Origin: Aquificales bacterium
Lineage (GTDB): Bacteria > Aquificota > Aquificia > Aquificales > Aquificaceae
Assembly: GCA_027037055.1 (NCBI GenBank)
Contig: JALWBR010000035.1
Span: forward strand, 1 to 64,000
Reading direction: 5' to 3'
DNA: 64,000 bases
In this document: piece after piece, positions 19,512 through 29,959 of the stretch
Position numbering within the stretch: the first letter of the stretch is position 1
Layout: every line of letters begins with the position of its first letter
The notes under the pieces: model-generated
What the model saw: the letters and a program-made list of their open reading frames with translations, nothing else
The model's database searches: none
What the model was told of the DNA's origin: nothing
Program-made: the position numbers and the translations under genes

Positions 19512-19865
19512 ATGGGAACTAAAACAGTTCTAATACTAAGCAAATCAAAATTTTTTTCGGAAGCACTTAGATTCATATTATACGATTTATCGGTAGAAAC
19601 GGAGATAGCGGATTCATGGGAAAAATTTATAAATCTTTCGCGCTCAAAAACCTATGACGTTATAGTATGTGATTTGTCATGTATGGATAAAAACATTGAA
19701 AGAAACACAAAAGATATAAAAATAATCTCTCCCCATTCCAAAATTGTAGTGTTTTCTTTTGATTTTTCTATAAAAAATTCTTATGCGGATTGCGTTATCA
19801 AAAGACCTTTAAAATGTGAAACCGTAATAAATCATCTAAAAAACATTTTAAATTCAACACAGTAG
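19512..19865 (+). CDS. Degenerate response-regulator receiver domain
   Basis: 117 residues with a receiver-like fold. TKTVLILSKSKFFSEALRFI stands where the first strand and metal-binding acidic pair should be, but reads SKSK instead of DD. Asp54 in DVIVCDLSCMD sits at the phospho-acceptor position, and CVIKRPLKCETV keeps the switch lysine-proline. Loss of the acidic pair suggests it no longer takes phosphate in the usual way and may act as a constitutive or protein-binding receiver. It lies just before the tandem receptor gene. Confidence 0.7.
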   Translation: MGTKTVLILSKSKFFSEALRFILYDLSVETEIADSWEKFINLSRSKTYDVIVCDLSCMDKNIERNTKDIKIISPHSKIVVFSFDFSIKNSYADCVIKRPLKCETVINHLKNILNSTQ

Positions 19866-19922: not shown

Positions 19923-21815
19923 ATGAAAGAAATTTTGCCCCCAGAGGAAGGTGGAAACTCTAAATACATTTCAAAAAAATTTACAGAACAAAGGCAACAC
20001 AGAACCTCCGCCCGCAAACAAGCCCTTGTTGAAAAACTCGCAACTGCTTCAGAGGAAATTGCAGCATCCATTTCAGAAATAGCGTCCGCTACAGAACAAG
20101 CAAAACGCTCCGCAGAAACAGTAGCCTCGGCAGCGGAAGAGGCTGCCCGTTCTACAGATGAAAATAGGAGAGCAATAGATGAAATAGTTTCTGTAGTTAA
20201 AAAGGGTATGGATGAAGCAAATATGCTTCATTCCATGGTTCAAGAGCTTTCAGAAAAAACACAACATTTATCAAATGAAATATCAAAATTAGCCCAGAGT
20301 ATACTTGATACCGCTGGCAAGGTAGAAACAACTGTGGAAACAGTTAGGATAATAGAAGCAACTTCTAAGGACATAGAAAAAGTAACAGGGTCTATTTTGA
20401 GGATAGCGGACAGAATAAATCTTTTAGCCCTTAATGCAGCTATAGAAGCTGCAAAAGCAGGAGAGCAAGGTAAAGGATTTTCTGTCGTCGCGGAAGAAGT
20501 AAGGATAATGACAGAAATGTCGGAAAAGAATGCAAACCAGATAAAGGAGATACTAACAGCAATTGTTGGAAGCATTAAAAATGTAGTAGAGCAGATAAAT
20601 TCTCTCGTTCAAGAAGGAAAAAAACAGGTTGATGTTATGCAAAATGTTGTTGCTGATTTTGAAAATTTATCAAAAACTATATCCGATTTGGGTCTTGCGG
20701 TTGAGGATTTTATAAATCTATTTAAAGAACAAATCAAAGCCCTTGAGGAACTCAAAGCCAGCTCGGAGCAGGTTGCTTCAGCAGCTGCAGAGCAGTCGTC
20801 AGCGGCGGAGGAAATATCCAGATCTGTAGGAGAATTGGCAAGCGCTATAGATGAAATAAACTCCGCAGCGGAGGAATTACGCAGAATGTCAATGGAGCTG
20901 AGGGATTCTACCTCCATAGAGGATAAAGCTGCGGAACAGATAGCAGCTGCAGCAGAACAATTATCAGCTTCTGTTGAAGAATTTTCTGGGAGTATTGAAC
21001 AGGTAAAACAAGCGGTAGATCAACTTTCCGCTGCATCGGAAGAACAGGCACGTGCTTCCGAAGGCATGTTTAACTTAGCTAAAAGTCTTAAAGAAGCATC
21101 CAACAATGTATCAAATAGCGCAAACAACAGTCTTTCTGTTATAAAAGACACACTTTCAGCCTACAATAAAGGCAAAAATTCCCTTCTTGATTCCAATTCA
21201 AACCTGGAAGAGCTTAAGAAAGGTATAGAGAAGAATATGGAAACTTTACGAGAACTTAAAAAAAGAACAACCCACATGAATAGGATAATAGGCAAGTTAG
21301 AACTAATAATGGTACAAACAAATATGCTTTCAGTAAACGGATTCATAGAAGCTGCAAGGTCAGGCGACTTCGGAAAGGGTTTTGAAGTTGTATCATCAGA
21401 TATAAAAAACCTGTCTACCGAAGGCACAGAAAACATAGACTCACTACAAAATAGCCTTTCAAATATAGAAGAACAATTTGAAAATTTTGTACAGTTACTA
21501 ACGCTTGCTGATGGTGAAGTGTTAAGTGATATAAATATCTCCCAGAAAAGTATATCACTGACAGAGAGCGGTGTACGTATAGCAGAAAAAACGTATCAAC
21601 TAATGAACAAAACCTCACGTATGGCGGGAGAAACATTAAATAAAGTTGAAACTATAGAGATGTCTTCAAATCAAATAGCTTCAGCTGCTGAGGAAACAGC
21701 AAGAACTACAAATGAGCTTGCTCAAGCTATAAGCCAGATAGAACAAGCTGTTAAACAAATAGCCCAAGCTATTGATGAGCTGGCAGCAATAGCGGACGAA
21801 CTCCAGGTCTATTGA
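19923..21815 (+). CDS. Soluble chemoreceptor with two tandem signalling hairpins
   Basis: 630 residues, no membrane segment and no recognised ligand domain. Nearly the whole chain is heptad-rich helix. Two chemoreceptor tip motifs are present: residues 164-194 ([20 protein letters not shown] then [10 protein letters not shown]) and residues 463-498 ([20 protein letters not shown] then [10 protein letters not shown]). Each is flanked by arms of ~130-150 residues, so residues ~36-325 and ~335-625 are two full antiparallel hairpins. Both halves open with [14 protein letters not shown]-type and close with [11 protein letters not shown]-type segments, showing internal duplication. A strong site GGAGGTAAAG precedes the ATG; CCTCC at 19884-19888 could pair with it. 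It should feed CheA through the triple CheW. Confidence 0.88.
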
Positions 21816-21826
21816 GGTGAGTGCAC

Positions 21827-23221
21827 ATGCTTAATCTTACAATATTTAGAGTAAAAGACCATATCTTCGCATACGAAACGGAAAGCGTATTAGAAACAGT
21901 AAAAGTAGAAAGGATTTTCAGAGTACCAAAAGCACCTAACTATATAGTAGGAGTTTTAAATCTAAGAAACAAGGTAATACCCCTTATAGATATGGGGTCT
22001 CTTCTTTGGAATGAAAAAATAAAGAGTGATACAGCAATTATTCTAAATGTGAAAGGAGAAACAATAGGAATCCTTGTTGATAAAGTAATAGGTATTACTC
22101 AATTTGAGGAGATAAATACAAAGGAGAAAGAGGAAGTAAGCGTAGAGGGAATAAGGGAAGATATAGTAAAAAGTATCATTGAAAAAGACGGCACTATTAT
22201 TTTCGTAGTAGATCTGTGTTCAATTATAGAAGTATCTAAAAAAGGTAGTAGGAAATTACCAAAAAAGGAAAAACTGACAGGAACCAAAGAAAATATAAAG
22301 AAAAGGGAAGGTTTAAAAGGCTACGTAATATTTCAAGTAGCGGATGAATGGTTTGCGGTAAAAGTTGATTATGTTAGGGAAATAGTGAACTATCCTGAAC
22401 ACGTTTCCCCAATTCCAAAAAGCCCGGATTATGTAGAAGGCGTTTTCCTCTTGAGAGGAGAGAAGATTGTTTTAGTTTCACTTAGCAAGATTATGGGTAT
22501 CCTTCCCAGTAAGAAGAAAGATAAGGTTATAGTCTTTAAAATAGGTAACGCTGTTATAGGTACAGCTGTAGATTGCGTAAAGGAAATAAAATGGATCCAA
22601 GAAAACTCTATCCTTAAACTGGAAGGGAGGATTTCGGAGGGTGTTATAGTGCTTGACGGGGGTTCCCGGTTGGCTTCCACTATTAATATCCAAAACATAC
22701 TTAATTTTGAAGATATAGAAACAGTAATAGGAGACGATGAAGAAAAAGAAAAGGCGGAAACGGAGGTAAAGAATATGAAGAGCTTCGTAAGATTTAATGT
22801 AGGGAATATAGATATGGCTATACCTATAGAAAAAATAAAAGAGGTTATAGAAGTAGAAGACGTATCCCCCGTTCCTGGAACACCTCAATATGTAAAAGGA
22901 ATGTATAACTTGAGAAATTCGGTTATAGTAGTTATAGATCTTAAAAAGAAGCTTGAAATAAATACGGAAGATGATTCTAACAGAGTTATAGTTCTGGAAA
23001 ATATGCCAGTAGGTCTTGTTGTTACAAAACTTAAAGGAATCCTTAGAACAGAAGAAGAGAACATACAGCCAGCAGAAGGTATGGCAGGCGTAGAAGAAAG
23101 CCTGCTTGAAGGAATAATAAAGACAGAAAAGGGAGAGGTCATATTTATTCTTGATATAGACAAAGCCATAGAAGAACAAGATATAAAGCTTATAAGGGAG
23201 GAGCTTGTAAAAAATGACTGA
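21827..23221 (+). CDS. cheW: Triple-domain CheW coupling protein
   Basis: 464 residues made of three consecutive CheW modules (about 1-140, 160-300, 325-455) joined by charged linkers. Each has the core motif in which a hydrophobic strand leads to LR and a second strand: VGVLNLRNKVIPLIDM, VEGVFLLRGEKIVLVSL and VKGMYNLRNSVIVVIDL. CheW links receptors to CheA. Three copies in one chain could crosslink several receptor or kinase units in an array. ATG 21827 is favoured because GAGGTGAG lies just upstream; GTG 21821 is the longer alternative. The end overlaps the next receptor gene by 8 bases. Confidence 0.92.
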   Translation: MLNLTIFRVKDHIFAYETESVLETVKVERIFRVPKAPNYIVGVLNLRNKVIPLIDMGSLLWNEKIKSDTAIILNVKGETIGILVDKVIGITQFEEINTKEKEEVSVEGIREDIVKSIIEKDGTIIFVVDLCSIIEVSKKGSRKLPKKEKLTGTKENIKKREGLKGYVIFQVADEWFAVKVDYVREIVNYPEHVSPIPKSPDYVEGVFLLRGEKIVLVSLSKIMGILPSKKKDKVIVFKIGNAVIGTAVDCVKEIKWIQENSILKLEGRISEGVIVLDGGSRLASTINIQNILNFEDIETVIGDDEEKEKAETEVKNMKSFVRFNVGNIDMAIPIEKIKEVIEVEDVSPVPGTPQYVKGMYNLRNSVIVVIDLKKKLEINTEDDSNRVIVLENMPVGLVVTKLKGILRTEEENIQPAEGMAGVEESLLEGIIKTEKGEVIFILDIDKAIEEQDIKLIREELVKND

Positions 23222-24365
23222 ACACGAAAAGAAAATTTTTTCGGATTTAGTCAACATAGTTACAAACACAATAAAAGCGGTTGAAGAAATGATAGATACC
23301 TCACCCCTATCTGACTGCGATATTGTATTTGGAGAAACACTTGCTAAGCTTAACATCTTTTTTAAAAAAATAGAAAACAGTTTCAAAGATTTCGTAATAT
23401 TTGAAAGATATGCCACCTGCGCATATACAAGCGAACTCGGTTTTTCATTAAAAGAAATACCGCCCTATATAAAAGAAAGGGTCTGGGAGCTACGCGAAAA
23501 TACTGAAATATGTGGATTTACCGGTGAACAATGCATATGCAAAAAATCAGCCAATTACCTGAAAGAGCGCTTTTCTGAATCAATACAGAGACTTGGTTCC
23601 TTTGGGGAATCAATTAAAGAAGGTTCTAATGAACTTAAAAAAGGCATAAAAGAACTGGGTCAAAAAGTAGAAAGTTTAACCGCCAGCACCAAAAAGATAA
23701 TGAATATAGCAGAAGTAATAGAAATCATAGCCCTAAATGCATATATAGAGGCTGCCCGCCTCGGAGAACATGGAAGAGGATTTAAGGTCATAGCAGACGA
23801 GGTCAGAAGGGCATCCGTAAGGACAAACGAATTGGCCTCAGAAATTATAAACGCAATAAAAGAACTGCACAATATGTTCATAAAACACATGAAAGCTCAA
23901 GACAGCTTTGAAACAAATGTAGTTAACATTGAGCAAGAACACAAGACATTTTCAGATAGATTAAACAACGATCTTCTATGGATGGCTCAAAACTTTATGG
24001 ATTTTCTTAATTACATGAGAAGCTATGTTCAAGAAGATATGAATTTACTACAAGAAGTTCGCAAAACAATATTGTCCGCCCTCCAAACAATAGATCTTTC
24101 CAATCAAAGATTACAAAATACTTACAAATCTTTGGAATTGTTGGCGCAGATGATAGAAATATTTGAAAAAGCTTTAAAAGATGAAATGGATACAGAATCC
24201 GCCTTTCAAAAAGTACAAAGCCTATACGAAGAGTTAAAGCGCATACCCAAACTAAGGGAAGAAAGGGAAATAATAGCACGTGCAGAAGGTAGGGCTATAG
24301 ACAGTGACAGCGATACAGTAGGACAGAAGGTTGAAGATGTAGAAACGGATATAGAGCTGTTTTAG
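23214..24365 (+). CDS. Soluble cysteine-containing chemoreceptor-like protein
   Basis: 383 residues without membrane segments. The N-terminal ~120 residues hold five cysteines (35, 69, 100, 107, 109), including the group CGFTGEQCICKK, plus a few acidic and aromatic residues; this could bind a metal, an FeS cluster or sense redox state. A compact chemoreceptor tip follows at residues ~166-200 (IIALNAYIEAARLGEHGRGF, VIADEVRRAS). The helical arms are short, and the C-terminal helices (ALQTIDLSNQRLQNTYKSLE) resemble the tails of soluble receptors. It overlaps the triple CheW gene, so it is almost surely part of the same signalling unit. The signal sensed is unknown. Confidence 0.8.
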   Translation: MTEHEKKIFSDLVNIVTNTIKAVEEMIDTSPLSDCDIVFGETLAKLNIFFKKIENSFKDFVIFERYATCAYTSELGFSLKEIPPYIKERVWELRENTEICGFTGEQCICKKSANYLKERFSESIQRLGSFGESIKEGSNELKKGIKELGQKVESLTASTKKIMNIAEVIEIIALNAYIEAARLGEHGRGFKVIADEVRRASVRTNELASEIINAIKELHNMFIKHMKAQDSFETNVVNIEQEHKTFSDRLNNDLLWMAQNFMDFLNYMRSYVQEDMNLLQEVRKTILSALQTIDLSNQRLQNTYKSLELLAQMIEIFEKALKDEMDTESAFQKVQSLYEELKRIPKLREEREIIARAEGRAIDSDSDTVGQKVEDVETDIELF

Positions 24366-24376
24366 GAGGTAAGGCG

Positions 24377-24733
24377 ATGAAAAAGGCTCTTGCGGTTGAT
24401 GATTCAGCTACAATGCGAAACCTGGTTAAAATAGCCTTAGAAGCAGAGGGTTTCTCCGTAGATACAGCAGGAAACGGACAAGAAGCTCTTGAGCTTGCTA
24501 AAAGGAACAGCTACGACGTAGTTATAAGCGATATAAACATGCCCGTCATGGACGGCTTACAATTCCTGAAAGAGTTCAGGGAAATAAATAAAAGAACTCC
24601 CGTTTTAATGCTTACAACAGAAACGGAAGCAAGAAAAAAAGAAGAGGCAAAAAGGTTAGGTGCAACTGGCTGGATAGTAAAGCCTTTCAAACCGGAAGAT
24701 CTCGTAAAGGTTGTTAAGAGGGTTGTAAGATGA
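24377..24733 (+). CDS. cheY: CheY response regulator
   Basis: A 118-residue single receiver domain with all key residues: acidic pair in ALAVDDSATMR, phospho-acceptor Asp52 in VVISDINMPVMDG, Thr in LMLTTE and the switch lysine in WIVKPFKP. It is expected to be phosphorylated by the CheA encoded immediately downstream; the stop overlaps the cheA start by 4 bases. Its output partner (motor, pilus or enzyme) is not in the window. Confidence 0.94.
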   Translation: MKKALAVDDSATMRNLVKIALEAEGFSVDTAGNGQEALELAKRNSYDVVISDINMPVMDGLQFLKEFREINKRTPVLMLTTETEARKKEEAKRLGATGWIVKPFKPEDLVKVVKRVVR

Positions 24734-26964
24734 AATATCTCATAAAGTTTAGACTGGGCAAAAGTATATTTGAGAGGGCAATAGATCCAAGATTTTACAT
24801 AGAAGACCTTCAAAAGCTTGGAAAAGCGGAAGTAAAAATAATAAAGGAAAATATACCCGAACCGGACGAAGAACCCTCTGACGAGCATTGTTTTGAAGCG
24901 GATTTAGTGCTTGAAACAGAAAGCTCCTTAGATGAAATAAAGGAATTGCTGGAATTTATATTGGAAGACGGTGTTGAAATAGATATACTTGAAGGTGAAT
25001 ACAAGGAACAGAAAAAGGAAAATGAAGAAAGTAAAGCAGAGGTTCCACAAGCTCTTCTTGAAAACTATAAGCTTGAAACAGAAGAAATACTCTCAAGGTT
25101 GAGGGACTCCCTTGAAGAACTTTATAATGCACCGGGTAGCCTGGAACTAATAAACGAAGTTTTTAGAAGCTTCCACACATTAAAAGGTAACACCGGTCTT
25201 ATACTTTCTTACGGAGAAGAACCCAACCTTAAATATATACACGAAATCTCACACAAGGCTGAAAGCGTTCTGCAAAAAGCAAGGGACACAGGAATAGGTT
25301 TATCAAAGAGGCATGTTGAAATACTGCAGGAGCTCGTAGACAGACTTGACGACCTGTTCCTTGCTTTCTCAGAAGGAAAAGAGGAAGAAGCGGAAGATGT
25401 TTTTAGCCTTCTTGACGAACTCAGCTCCTTCACAGAGAAAAAGGAGGAAATAAAGCAAGGAAAAGGACTACCCGCAGATATTTCCGCATTATTAAATGTA
25501 ACTTCACAGTATGTTCCTGTTTTTAGGGAACTTTGTTCTAAGGGTGAATTAACAGAGGAGGAAGAAGAATTTTTCAGGCGTTCTCTATTAACACTTCACA
25601 AACTGACAAAGGAGTTCGGCTTTGAGGATTTAAACAAGAAAATAAAAGATCTACAAGCCTCTTTCGGGAACGTAGACTTTAAAGAATTTTGCGAAAATCT
25701 GGAAGAACTCGCCTTAGATCTTCAAAAATTGATAGATAGCAAAATTCCAGAATCTAAATGGAAAAAAGAAAAGGAAGAAAAAAGAGCTTTTGATACATCC
25801 AAATACGTAAGTAAAAGCAAATATCTGAAAGTGAAAGAGGACACGGTTCAAAAACTTATGGATATTGTTGGAGAACTTTCCGTTTTCAAAGAATGGATTT
25901 ATCTGTTTGCAAACAAATTGCAAAAAGTTTATGGTATGCCTGATGCTTCAAAAGAATTGAAGGATAACATGCACAGATTCAGAAGTCTTATGGATAATCT
26001 TCAAAGAACCGTTCTTGAAATGAGAATGGTCCCCGTTTCTGTCCTCTTTGAACGCTTTCCTAAGCTTGTAAGAGATCTTTCAAGAACATTGGGTAAAAAG
26101 GTAAGATTGGAAATAGAAGGCGGTGATACAAAATTGGACAAAGTGATAATAGAAAAAATAGCGGAACCCATGATACACCTTGTAAGAAATGCAATAGACC
26201 ACGGTATAGAAACACCAGAAGAGCGCGAAGCTCTGGGTAAACCCATAGAAGGATGCATAAAAATAAGGGCTTCTCAGGAAGGAGGAAATGTATTAATAGA
26301 GATATCGGATGATGGAAGAGGCATAGATGTTGAAAAGGTACGCAAAAAAGCTGTAGAAAAGAAGCTTTACAAAGAAGAAGAAATATCGCAAATGAGCGAT
26401 GAGGAAGTTATCCAAATAATTTTTCAGCCTGGTTTTTCAACAAAGGACCAGGCTACAGAGCTTTCGGGAAGGGGAGTAGGAATGGATGTTGTGGCAAACA
26501 CAATAAGAAGCTTAGGCGGTGAAGTTAGCATAAAAACTCAAAAGTCCTTAGGGACAGCTGTAAAACTAATACTACCTTTAACCCTGGCAATAAGAAAGAT
26601 TCTACTCGTGAGAATGGGCGATGTAATATTCGGTGTACCTGCTGAAAACGTGGGTGAGGTGTTTAAGATAAAAAGAGGTGAGGTTAAAAGCCTTAAAGGT
26701 ATAAAAGTTGTATATCACCGTGGGAAAGTCCTTGAGCTTGACTTTATTTGTGACAGATTGGGCATTAAAAGTACTTCTAACGGAACACTTACGCTGTTAA
26801 TAGATAATTCTCTCACAAAAGGCGTAGTTGTTGATGAAGTTATGAGCACAATAGATACCGTAGTAAAACCAGTACCCTCAGTTCTCCAAACACCTCCAGA
26901 GATAAGCGGTGTAACTATTTTGGGAGATGGAAGCATAGTTTATGTGCTTGAGGTCTTGAAATGA
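24730..26964 (+). CDS. cheA: CheA sensor histidine kinase with extra N-terminal domain
   Basis: 744 residues. Residues 1-95 (YLIKFRLGKSIFERAIDPRF, then an acidic part with FEADLVLETESSLDEIKELL) form a mixed alpha/beta domain like the P2-type regulatory domain of some CheA proteins, here placed before the HPt. The HPt follows with His149 in EVFRSFHTLKGN. Then come a helical linker, the dimerisation helices (~370-440), an ATPase domain with HLVRNAIDHGIE, DDGRGIDVEKV and GRGVGMDVV, and a C-terminal CheW-like regulatory domain (~612-744). All catalytic boxes are intact. The gene overlaps cheY and cheB by 4 bases each. Confidence 0.94.
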   Translation: MKYLIKFRLGKSIFERAIDPRFYIEDLQKLGKAEVKIIKENIPEPDEEPSDEHCFEADLVLETESSLDEIKELLEFILEDGVEIDILEGEYKEQKKENEESKAEVPQALLENYKLETEEILSRLRDSLEELYNAPGSLELINEVFRSFHTLKGNTGLILSYGEEPNLKYIHEISHKAESVLQKARDTGIGLSKRHVEILQELVDRLDDLFLAFSEGKEEEAEDVFSLLDELSSFTEKKEEIKQGKGLPADISALLNVTSQYVPVFRELCSKGELTEEEEEFFRRSLLTLHKLTKEFGFEDLNKKIKDLQASFGNVDFKEFCENLEELALDLQKLIDSKIPESKWKKEKEEKRAFDTSKYVSKSKYLKVKEDTVQKLMDIVGELSVFKEWIYLFANKLQKVYGMPDASKELKDNMHRFRSLMDNLQRTVLEMRMVPVSVLFERFPKLVRDLSRTLGKKVRLEIEGGDTKLDKVIIEKIAEPMIHLVRNAIDHGIETPEEREALGKPIEGCIKIRASQEGGNVLIEISDDGRGIDVEKVRKKAVEKKLYKEEEISQMSDEEVIQIIFQPGFSTKDQATELSGRGVGMDVVANTIRSLGGEVSIKTQKSLGTAVKLILPLTLAIRKILLVRMGDVIFGVPAENVGEVFKIKRGEVKSLKGIKVVYHRGKVLELDFICDRLGIKSTSNGTLTLLIDNSLTKGVVVDEVMSTIDTVVKPVPSVLQTPPEISGVTILGDGSIVYVLEVLK

Positions 26965-28013
26965 ATAAGATAAAGGTTTTGGTTGCGGATGATTCAGCAT
27001 TTATGCGAAAAGCCTTAAGAGAAATACTGGAAAGCGACAATCAAATAGAAGTAATAGATACAGCCAGGAACGGAAAAGAAGCTGTTGATAAAGTTGCAAA
27101 GTTTAATCCTGATGTTCTTACTTTGGACATAAATATGCCCGTAATGGACGGGAAAGAAGCCCTTAAGATAATTATGGAACAAAATCCGCTTCCTGTGGTT
27201 GTAGTCTCGTCCCTAACAACAGAAGAAGCACCCATAACTATGGAGCTACTTGATATGGGGGCTTTTGACTATGTTCCTAAACCCTCCGGCACAATATCCT
27301 TAGATATACACAAAGTTGCGGATGAAATAATATCAAAGGTTAAGGAAGCTTATCGTTCAAGACACAGACTTATATCTAAAAAACCCCTTAAAAGATCATT
27401 TAAAACATCATTCAGTCCTGCCAAAAGGAATCTCGCAAATGTGGTGGTCGCCATAGGTATATCCACGGGAGGACCTGCAACGCTTATAGATATATTACAA
27501 GACTGCGAGATTTATGAAAATACAGCTTATCTTGTTGTTCAACATATGCCACCGCAGTTCACACCCTCCTTAGCAAACAGGCTTTCCGAATATACACCTA
27601 TTAAATTCCTCCATGCTCCCCACGGACAAAGCATTTTGGGAGGTTACGGATACTTAGCACCCGGAGGATGGCATATGAAAGTGACAAATGATAAGAAGAT
27701 TAAACTGTTTAAGGACGACAGTTATATATATTACCCTTCTGCGGATGTACTGTTTGATTCAGTAGCTGATGTTTACTGCCCCAATGCAATAGGAGTTCTG
27801 CTAACAGGTATAGGAAGAGACGGAGCAAAAGGGCTCTTAAAAATGAAAAACAAGGGATGTTTTACAATAGCAGAGTCTGAAGAAACAGCAGTAGTGTATG
27901 GTATGCCTGCAGCAGCAAAAGAGATAGGAGCAGCAGTGGAAATACTGCCTGCATACAAGATAGCATCCGCCATAAATAGACACCTAAGAAGATTAAAGGA
28001 GAAAACGCTATGA
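26961..28013 (+). CDS. cheB: CheB protein-glutamate methylesterase/deamidase
   Basis: 350 residues: an N-terminal receiver with Asp56 (LTLDINMPVMDG) and a C-terminal methylesterase with the catalytic triad visible as Ser168 in AIGISTGGP, His195 in VVQHMPPQFT and Asp287 in TGIGRDGAKG. It removes methyl groups from receptor glutamates and thereby sets adaptation, opposing CheR encoded two genes later. The ATG overlaps the cheA stop, and the stop overlaps the HEAT-repeat gene start. Confidence 0.95.
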   Translation: MNKIKVLVADDSAFMRKALREILESDNQIEVIDTARNGKEAVDKVAKFNPDVLTLDINMPVMDGKEALKIIMEQNPLPVVVVSSLTTEEAPITMELLDMGAFDYVPKPSGTISLDIHKVADEIISKVKEAYRSRHRLISKKPLKRSFKTSFSPAKRNLANVVVAIGISTGGPATLIDILQDCEIYENTAYLVVQHMPPQFTPSLANRLSEYTPIKFLHAPHGQSILGGYGYLAPGGWHMKVTNDKKIKLFKDDSYIYYPSADVLFDSVADVYCPNAIGVLLTGIGRDGAKGLLKMKNKGCFTIAESEETAVVYGMPAAAKEIGAAVEILPAYKIASAINRHLRRLKEKTL

Positions 28014-28771
28014 AAGAGGAAATTCTAAAAAAATTAAATTCGGAAGACAAAAATGAAGTAAGAGAAGCCATCCTATCTTTGGCAGGCGAATCAGACCCTA
28101 ATATAGCCCGCGCAGTTATAGAAGCTGTTGTCAATTCAAAAAGCAAGGCTGTTTTGGAAGCGGGAAAGAGTTTTTTCCTATCCTATAAAGGAGATCCTGA
28201 GGTTTTGTGTAACGAGATTATAAAATTTTTCAATTATCCAGAACCAAAACTAAGGCAGACCGCTATATATATCCTATCATCAAAGGGCGAAACTTGTATT
28301 GATGTTATAGAAAAAAACTTGGTACAACACAAGGATCACAACATGCGCAAGTTCGCCCTTGATATACTTGCAAATGTTAGAACAAGAAAAGCCTTAAGCT
28401 TAATTGAAAAACTAATAAACGACGAGAGCCAAAATGTACGCATGTCCGCCCTTGAATATTTAAGGAACTTTTCGGACTTCAAAGATGAGGTGATAAATAT
28501 AATATATAAGCTTATACCAAATATAAAGGATACATACGAGTTTACAACACTGGCATCAACAGTAATATATGGAGAGTTAAATGACAAAAAACTTGCGGAG
28601 CCAATAAGGGAAAAACTCAAAGCTACAACAGATCCACTTAATAAATACTGGCTTTATAAGATACTCATATTCTTAGGTGAAAAAGATATCTACGAAGAGG
28701 CTATGAGTAACGGAGAGTTAATCGGTATGAGAGAGGACGTTGAAAAAGATATAAGGATCTTTAATTCCTAA
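28010..28771 (+). CDS. HEAT-repeat protein in chemosensory operon
   Basis: 253 residues built of helical pairs of HEAT type, such as NEVREAILSLAGESDPNIAR, LRQTAIYILSSKGETCIDVI and VRMSALEYLRNFSDFKDEVI. Such repeats make a curved scaffold for protein binding. It is placed between cheB and cheR with a 4-base overlap upstream, so it is translated with them and probably binds a component of the pathway. HEAT proteins also accompany some non-flagellar chemosensory systems. No catalytic residues are apparent. Confidence 0.8.
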   Translation: MKEEILKKLNSEDKNEVREAILSLAGESDPNIARAVIEAVVNSKSKAVLEAGKSFFLSYKGDPEVLCNEIIKFFNYPEPKLRQTAIYILSSKGETCIDVIEKNLVQHKDHNMRKFALDILANVRTRKALSLIEKLINDESQNVRMSALEYLRNFSDFKDEVINIIYKLIPNIKDTYEFTTLASTVIYGELNDKKLAEPIREKLKATTDPLNKYWLYKILIFLGEKDIYEEAMSNGELIGMREDVEKDIRIFNS

Positions 28772-28779
28772 GGACAATA

Positions 28780-29598
28780 ATGCTGACAAGGTTGTACTTT
28801 GATATACTAAGGGAAATCATATACGAGAACACAGGAATAATCTTTGATGATAAGAAGAAGTACTTCATTGAAAACCGAGTAAAGGAACACATGGAAGAGT
28901 TGGGATTAAACTCATTAAAGGAATATATTTACAGATTAAAAACAGATAAGAGAGCTATAAAGGAATTCATATCAAAGATAACCGTTAATGAAACCTATTT
29001 TTACAGAGAGTATTATCATCTTAAAGCCTTGGCTAAACTTGTGCAGGGGGAAAATCAACGTTTACCAGTAAAAGTTCTTAGTATACCTTGCTCCACAGGG
29101 GAAGAACCATACAGCATAGCGATAGTTTTGAACGAAGTATTAGAAGACCCAAAAAAATTTGAAGTATTGGGTGTAGATATAGATATTAATGCAATAAAAA
29201 AGGCTAAGGAAGGAATATATGGAAAAAGGAGTATTTCAAAACTACCCTCGCAGTATCTTAAAAAGTACTTTGATCAGGTAGATGAAGAAAAATGGATGAT
29301 AAAAGATTTTATAAAAAAAAGGGTAAGATTTTATGAAGGCAACATTCTTGACAGACTATTCATTAAAAGCCTGAGAAAATTTCACTACGTGTTTTGCAAA
29401 AATCTCCTTATCTATTTCGACGATAATGCAAGAACCCAAGCCATAAACAATTTATATGACGCTCTTATGGATGGAGGTTTTCTATTTTTAGGTCATGCCG
29501 AAAGTATATCCCGATCTTCATCCTTATTTGAGCCAGTAAAAGTTGAAGGAGCCATAGTTTATAAGAAAGTAAGCGAGGAGGATGAGGATGAATGGTAA
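28780..29598 (+). CDS. cheR: CheR chemoreceptor methyltransferase
   Basis: 272 residues. A helical N-terminal domain (YENTGIIFDDKKKYFIENRV) precedes an AdoMet-dependent methyltransferase domain. Diagnostic blocks: TVNETYFYREYYH (residues 69-80), the SAM loop VLSIPCSTGEEPYSIA (~99-114), DIDINAIKKAKEGIY, and VFCKNLLIYFDD near the C-terminal third. It methylates glutamates on the chemoreceptors and pairs with CheB. Its tail overlaps the second cheY by 11 bases. Confidence 0.95.
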   Translation: MLTRLYFDILREIIYENTGIIFDDKKKYFIENRVKEHMEELGLNSLKEYIYRLKTDKRAIKEFISKITVNETYFYREYYHLKALAKLVQGENQRLPVKVLSIPCSTGEEPYSIAIVLNEVLEDPKKFEVLGVDIDINAIKKAKEGIYGKRSISKLPSQYLKKYFDQVDEEKWMIKDFIKKRVRFYEGNILDRLFIKSLRKFHYVFCKNLLIYFDDNARTQAINNLYDALMDGGFLFLGHAESISRSSSLFEPVKVEGAIVYKKVSEEDEDEW

Positions 29599-29959
29599 GA
29601 CTAAAAAAGCACTTGTAGTTGATGATTCACTTACTATAAGGATCTACCATTCCTCCTTATTAAAAAGCTTCGGCTACGAAGTTGATACGGCGGAGAACGG
29701 CCTTGAAGCCTTAGAAATGGCTATGAAAAGGAAATACGATCTTGTTCTATCAGATATAAACATGCCTGTTATGGACGGTTTTGAGTTTGTCCGCAAACTT
29801 AGAAAACTGGATGAATACAAATACATTCCCGTAGTTTTCATCACAACCCTTGACTCGGAAGAAGACAAAAGAAGGGCGCTCATGTCTGGCGGAACACTTT
29901 ATATAGTAAAACCCATAAATCTTGAAGTGCTTGAAAAAATACTTAAATCCATCCCGTGA
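29588..29959 (+). CDS. cheY: Second CheY-like response regulator
   Basis: A 123-residue receiver with the acidic pair in ALVVDDSLTIR, Asp56 in LVLSDINMPVMDG, Thr in VFITTLDSE and Lys in YIVKPINLE. GAGGAGG (29575-29581) is 6 bases before ATG 29588, so this start is favoured over ATG 29582. With two CheY proteins and no CheZ or CheC, one may act as a phosphate sink for the other, as known in other multi-CheY systems. It is the last gene of the island. Confidence 0.92.
   Translation: MNGKTKKALVVDDSLTIRIYHSSLLKSFGYEVDTAENGLEALEMAMKRKYDLVLSDINMPVMDGFEFVRKLRKLDEYKYIPVVFITTLDSEEDKRRALMSGGTLYIVKPINLEVLEKILKSIP

Follow-up and report, generated by a model that had tools for sequence, protein, structure and literature searches.

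Proteins that carry two chemoreceptor signalling domains in one chain are named DosM and are the hallmark of F9-class cytoplasmic arrays (PMC7534058, PMC9321776); dosM with an adjacent gene for a triple CheW protein is the signature of the class (PMC9321776; PMC7534058). Sensory domains are absent in 98% of DosM homologs, the carriers of F9 systems are mostly flagellated and possess another chemosensory class, and partial F9 sets are known from Aquificota and Campylobacterota (PMC9321776). In the imaging passages of PMC7534058, cryo-tomography of Vibrio DosM gives a rod in extended form, each end carrying one signalling domain with its tip in one of two opposed baseplates. The baseplates in Vibrio lie 35 nm apart according to the corresponding passages of PMC7534058, PMC9321776 and eLife 02151.

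The window analysed here is a stretch of 64,000 nucleotides from an Aquificales bacterium (GCA_027037055.1, contig JALWBR010000035.1). One of its open reading frames encodes a protein of this kind, with the following parts.

19923–21815, + strand: dosM, double-signalling-domain chemoreceptor of 630 residues (two Pfam MCPsignal domains, one per half; two-tip orthologs elsewhere)
20049–20904, + strand: hairpin 1, residues about 43–327, tip [21 protein letters not shown] around residue 175 (Pfam; AlphaFold2 helices)
20880–20958, + strand: central linker, residues 320–345 (length variation in 34 relatives; predicted helix break)
20925–21812, + strand: hairpin 2, residues about 335–630, tip [23 protein letters not shown] around residue 476 (Pfam; AlphaFold2 of the half alone; Foldseek; clade)

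The frame opens with ATG. Scored separately against Pfam MCPsignal (cut-off 34.6 bits), residues 1–327 gave 118.2 bits (E 4.6e-34) and residues 326–630 gave 84.5 bits (E 1e-23), so the profile search of each half finds two signalling domains and not one. The halves are akin to each other (BLASTP E 5e-18, 23% identity), as a sequence-only reading of this frame had proposed. Compared with itself without gaps, the sequence agrees best when shifted by exactly 301 residues (64 of 290 positions identical); other offsets give 9–35, with coiled-coil heptad peaks of 48–51. The same distance separates the tips (E175 to E476). The earlier reading had recognised both tips but placed them about 298 residues apart. 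Its remark that no ligand domain or membrane span is visible also holds: MCPsignal is the only Pfam domain above its curated cut-off, and the Kyte–Doolittle mean over 19-residue windows does not exceed 1.04. The chain contains neither Cys nor Trp.

AlphaFold2 predicts helices 20–178, 180–328 and 334–629 for the whole chain (pLDDT 86), with a break of five residues at 329–333. A missing second hairpin, hinted at by the single helix run 334–629 (DSSP) in the full model, was ruled out since half 2 folded alone turns at residues 481–484, with two helices joined at the tip (3–155 and 160–304 in the numbering of the half). In Foldseek, half 2 resembles chemoreceptor structures along its whole length (TM 0.77 over 303 columns with 9a65; TM 0.71 with 2ch7). 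The latter, the cytoplasmic domain of a Thermotoga maritima chemoreceptor, is likewise a long hairpin, but has only one hairpin per chain. The hairpin foreseen for residues 335–625 is thus reproduced by the predicted fold of half 2. As both halves pass the Pfam cut-off and half 2 alone folds as a hairpin, the original observation stands: dosM encodes two full, equal-length, mutually related signalling hairpins in one soluble chain, with asymmetric tips.

This two-tip layout, which had been presented as a departure from ordinary chemoreceptors, is real, but the architecture is already described as DosM. The genes around dosM point to the same family.

19512–19865, + strand: receiver-like protein upstream of dosM (Pfam Response_reg E 0.0033, under the cut-off; position conserved in relatives)
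21821–23221, + strand: cheW3, triple CheW adaptor of 466 residues (three Pfam CheW stretches; three separate domains located)
23214–24365, + strand: sMCP, short soluble single-tip receptor of 383 residues, tip E179 (Pfam MCPsignal 62.5 bits; motifs)
24377–24733, + strand: cheY (Pfam Response_reg)
24730–26964, + strand: cheA, 744 residues (Pfam Hpt, H-kinase_dim, HATPase_c and CheW)
26961–28013, + strand: cheB (Pfam Response_reg and CheB_methylest)
28010–28771, + strand: HEAT-repeat protein of 253 residues (Pfam HEAT_2; HEAT genes in plasmid F9 clusters)
28780–29598, + strand: cheR (Pfam CheR)
29582–29959, + strand: second cheY-like receiver of 125 residues (open reading frame; ortholog after cheR in loci L012, L019, L021, L074 and L075)

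Positions 19923–29959 thus hold a full che set, with CheA, CheB, CheR and CheY encoded beside dosM and cheW3; the order 3' of dosM is cheW3, sMCP, cheY, cheA, cheB, the HEAT-repeat gene, cheR and cheY. The tandem signalling domains, the lack of a sensor domain or membrane span and the full-length homology to two-tip receptors beside triple CheW genes agree with DosM; the concatenated triple CheW and the CheA, CheB, CheR and CheY encoded alongside agree with F9, a class placement made from gene content. DosM (VC1403) of the Vibrio cholerae F9-class cluster I is similarly soluble and has tandem signalling domains without a sensor; its gene lies next to one for a triple CheW, in a cluster that also encodes CheA (PMC7534058, PMC9321776). 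In the window, by contrast with the V. cholerae cluster, a dedicated short soluble receptor directly follows cheW3; the two clusters are likened by their published and predicted layout. The protein is most likely a member of the DosM family, its orthology to the imaged VC1403 resting on architecture and gene company. The genome also fits the pattern of F9 carriers, with a second cheA/cheW cluster that includes a true cheZ (contig C20) and a gene for flagellar FlhA.

A public-genome scan with dosM returned 12 loci at 65–91% identity. Eleven are labelled Aquificota or Aquificales; the remaining one, contig L023, is labelled as an archaeon, which is probably a binning error. In a whole-genome search of the phylum (E < 1e-20), 29 of 136 genomes contain matches, and 15 of these, the window's own included, carry full-length dosM at no less than 61% identity. 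A second and a third family of Aquificota contribute 12 full-length or near-full-length matches at 24–31% identity; the other matches within the 29 genomes are short, resembling ordinary receptors. The dosM loci of the second and third families have cheR and lack cheA; cheB is missing in one locus only, and cheW3 was recognised in all except three. In grouping dosM, cheW3, cheB and cheR they resemble the partial F9 sets of PMC9321776, here found in these two other families. Such sets differ from the window's family, which has the full set, in a cluster without cheA and cheY.

Outside the phylum, seven annotated plasmids encode a two-tip receptor directly before a triple-size CheW protein, followed by cheB, cheR and cheA. 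Their hosts are Beta- and Alphaproteobacteria (Sphaerotilus, Eleftheria, Methylosinus, Azospirillum, Agrobacterium vitis, Methylobacterium and Novosphingobium). The plasmid receptors were found via the triple CheW and via DosM from another Aquificota family; tblastn of plasmids with the window's dosM gave no relative covering over 80% of the query. These proteins are 26–29% identical to the window's DosM over the whole chain, with identical arm lengths free of insertions and deletions, a shared tip-2 signature and the multi-CheW gene next; their linker is one or two residues shorter. Their cheA lies near the cluster end, whereas that of the window precedes cheB. The orthologs with two tips sought by the earlier reading therefore exist both in other Aquificota genomes and on these seven proteobacterial plasmids. 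Matches in viral contigs cover about one signalling domain only and were taken as ordinary receptors.

Several features of these loci were recorded in passing. In the window's family the HEAT-repeat gene is a neighbour of cheB and cheR, and five of the seven proteobacterial plasmid clusters have such a gene between these two; no mention of HEAT repeats was found in the F9 literature searched. CheA of the window has about 107 additional residues ahead of Hpt. A portion of this extension matches a region after Hpt in the Methylosinus F9 CheA, and the domain order may be swapped between the two proteins. In one genome (G023, locus L205), the short receptor and the genes 5' of dosM are found in unchanged order, with dosM, cheW3 and everything else of the F9 cluster absent; this looks like a natural deletion of the F9 system.

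The anatomy of DosM was compared in 34 relatives from two phyla, counting net length between anchors. No net insertion or deletion was found in residues 68–320 or 345–615. The linker ranges from 12 to 25 residues, is the sole length-variable stretch between residues 68 and 615, and contains Pro in several relatives. As the arms are free of indels while the linker varies, arm length is under strong constraint, unlike the joint. The changes in linker length are mostly not multiples of seven, and an uninterrupted coiled coil through the middle of the chain is therefore unlikely. That arm lengths do not differ by a single residue among 34 relatives, with length change confined to the mid-rod linker, is a new regularity of F9 systems, to which the conserved second-tip signature described below and the recurrent HEAT-repeat and short soluble receptor genes can be added.

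The second tip is diverged, as had been noted, and its deviations from the canonical motif are shared by all relatives compared (NG or SG for NA; DI for E[VI]). Residues Q465, L469, G473, E476, R479, G481, G484, G486, F487, V490, D493 and I494 are near-invariant, as many as in tip 1. By motif alignment, E476 and R479 are the equivalents of Tsr E385 and R388, which form an ionic lock between dimers in the trimer (PMC8144572); both are kept. In a tree of halves and single-hairpin receptors, half-2 sequences form one clade (support 100/99), and half-1 sequences form no single clade and were not resolved from the single receptors. As half 2 forms one clade, the two-tip layout is older than the split of the Aquificota and proteobacterial forms; it may have originated through duplication or through the fusion of two receptors. 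If only the first tip signalled and the second hairpin were a decayed spacer, the lower score of tip 2 and its straying from the canonical motif would be explained; near-invariant residues as numerous as in tip 1 across two phyla, together with the retained E385/R388 equivalents, argue against this, and we judge it very unlikely. On the sequence comparison, the divergence of tip 2 is not decay or loss of function, tip 2 having its own conserved signature. This distinct signature, held in two phyla, also supports the asymmetry that had been read from the tip pair.

We consider it very probable that the dosM product is a DosM-type F9 receptor, a dimeric extended rod that would act as a strut between two CheA/CheW3 baseplates and take its input from other receptors. 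Two hairpins, gene company, conservation and the single half-2 clade come from the present analysis; what is carried over by homology from V. cholerae is the extended shape of the rod, the pair of baseplates and the function as a strut. Each half would adopt the usual hairpin fold of chemoreceptors, with a length of about 21 nm. Dimers of the chain would stand as extended rods in which one hairpin continues the other and the linker occupies the middle, with one tip entering each of the two opposed CheA/CheW3 baseplates. DosM, having no sensor of its own, would then be a structural strut of the sandwich array, and input would reach the array from other cytoplasmic receptors, of which sMCP is the nearest candidate.

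The sequence-only reading had suggested a built-in pseudo-dimer. In a folded-back chain of this kind the linker would turn, the hairpins would lie side by side as an intramolecular four-helix bundle and both tips would face the same baseplate. Hairpins of equal length at an offset of exactly 301 residues, the predicted five-residue helix break, Pro in the linkers of several relatives and the variable linker length would all suit such a chain. The helix break and variable length fit a jointed rod, and would fit a folded-back chain equally. The halves are only 23% identical, though, and their tips are distinct and conserved; above all, the images of Vibrio DosM, as presented in the imaging passages of PMC7534058, show a rod that is extended and carries a signalling domain at either end. 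It is because of these images, not of fold evidence from this analysis, that folding back is disfavoured, and we judge it very unlikely. The full-length model (pTM 0.59) was used for secondary structure only and does not separate the extended rod from the fold-back; against most long coiled coils its Foldseek rmsd is high, so that it carries no information on overall shape. The distance between tips, estimated at ~43 nm (two arms, each about 145 residues long, with a rise of 0.148 nm per residue) and compared with 35 nm in Vibrio, was considered as a test of shape and dropped: two opposed layers of folded-back, half-length receptors would be equally thick and give equal spacing, so this span is compatible with both arrangements. 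The pseudo-dimer idea, though attractive, is unnecessary.

Within the extended rod, functional asymmetry of the two tips remains plausible, given that none of the 34 relatives lacks the tip-2 signature, and from the two conserved, different tips we infer that they may meet their baseplates differently. A further-reaching proposal, that the ends of DosM are functionally different and the F9 baseplates (or two sites in each) chemically distinct, and that in this lineage sMCP is a receptor–CheZ hybrid serving as the array's own CheY phosphatase, is tentative and in our view improbable.

The short receptor sMCP gives a concrete candidate for the partner receptor of DosM. Each of the 15 dosM-bearing family members has it, one of them only as fragments on different contigs, and it also occurs in two genomes that lack dosM. 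The C-terminal arm of sMCP contains D294-x3-Q298, and the last five residues of the protein are DIELF; an [IV]ELF terminus is found in 17 of 17 sMCP sequences of the family set examined. The short receptors of three plasmid F9 clusters contain [FY]QD[IV]xxQ and end in IELF, and the true CheZ of the genome contains FQDLVSQ. In the two genomes with sMCP but without dosM, the [IV]ELF tail is lost and the glutamine replaced. Pfam CheZ (PF04344) does not match sMCP at E up to 10. With hhalign, the arm aligns weakly with CheZ (E 0.0005–0.001) only when the proteobacterial forms are included, and one control arm scores about equally. These motifs suggest, as a lead only, a receptor with a built-in CheY phosphatase.

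Two smaller observations concern other receptor-like sequences of the genome and of sMCP itself. The other che cluster of the genome, on contig C20, encodes a stand-alone protein of 96 residues that is little beyond a chemoreceptor tip (L060:1856–2146; C20:16355–16645); the open reading frames that match it best, about 89–128 residues long, come from 11 further genomes of the family. Towards the N-terminus of sMCP, Cys residues 69, 100, 107 and 109 are conserved in the aligned Aquificaceae relatives and absent from the proteobacterial forms, and their pattern suggests a putative metal or redox site.
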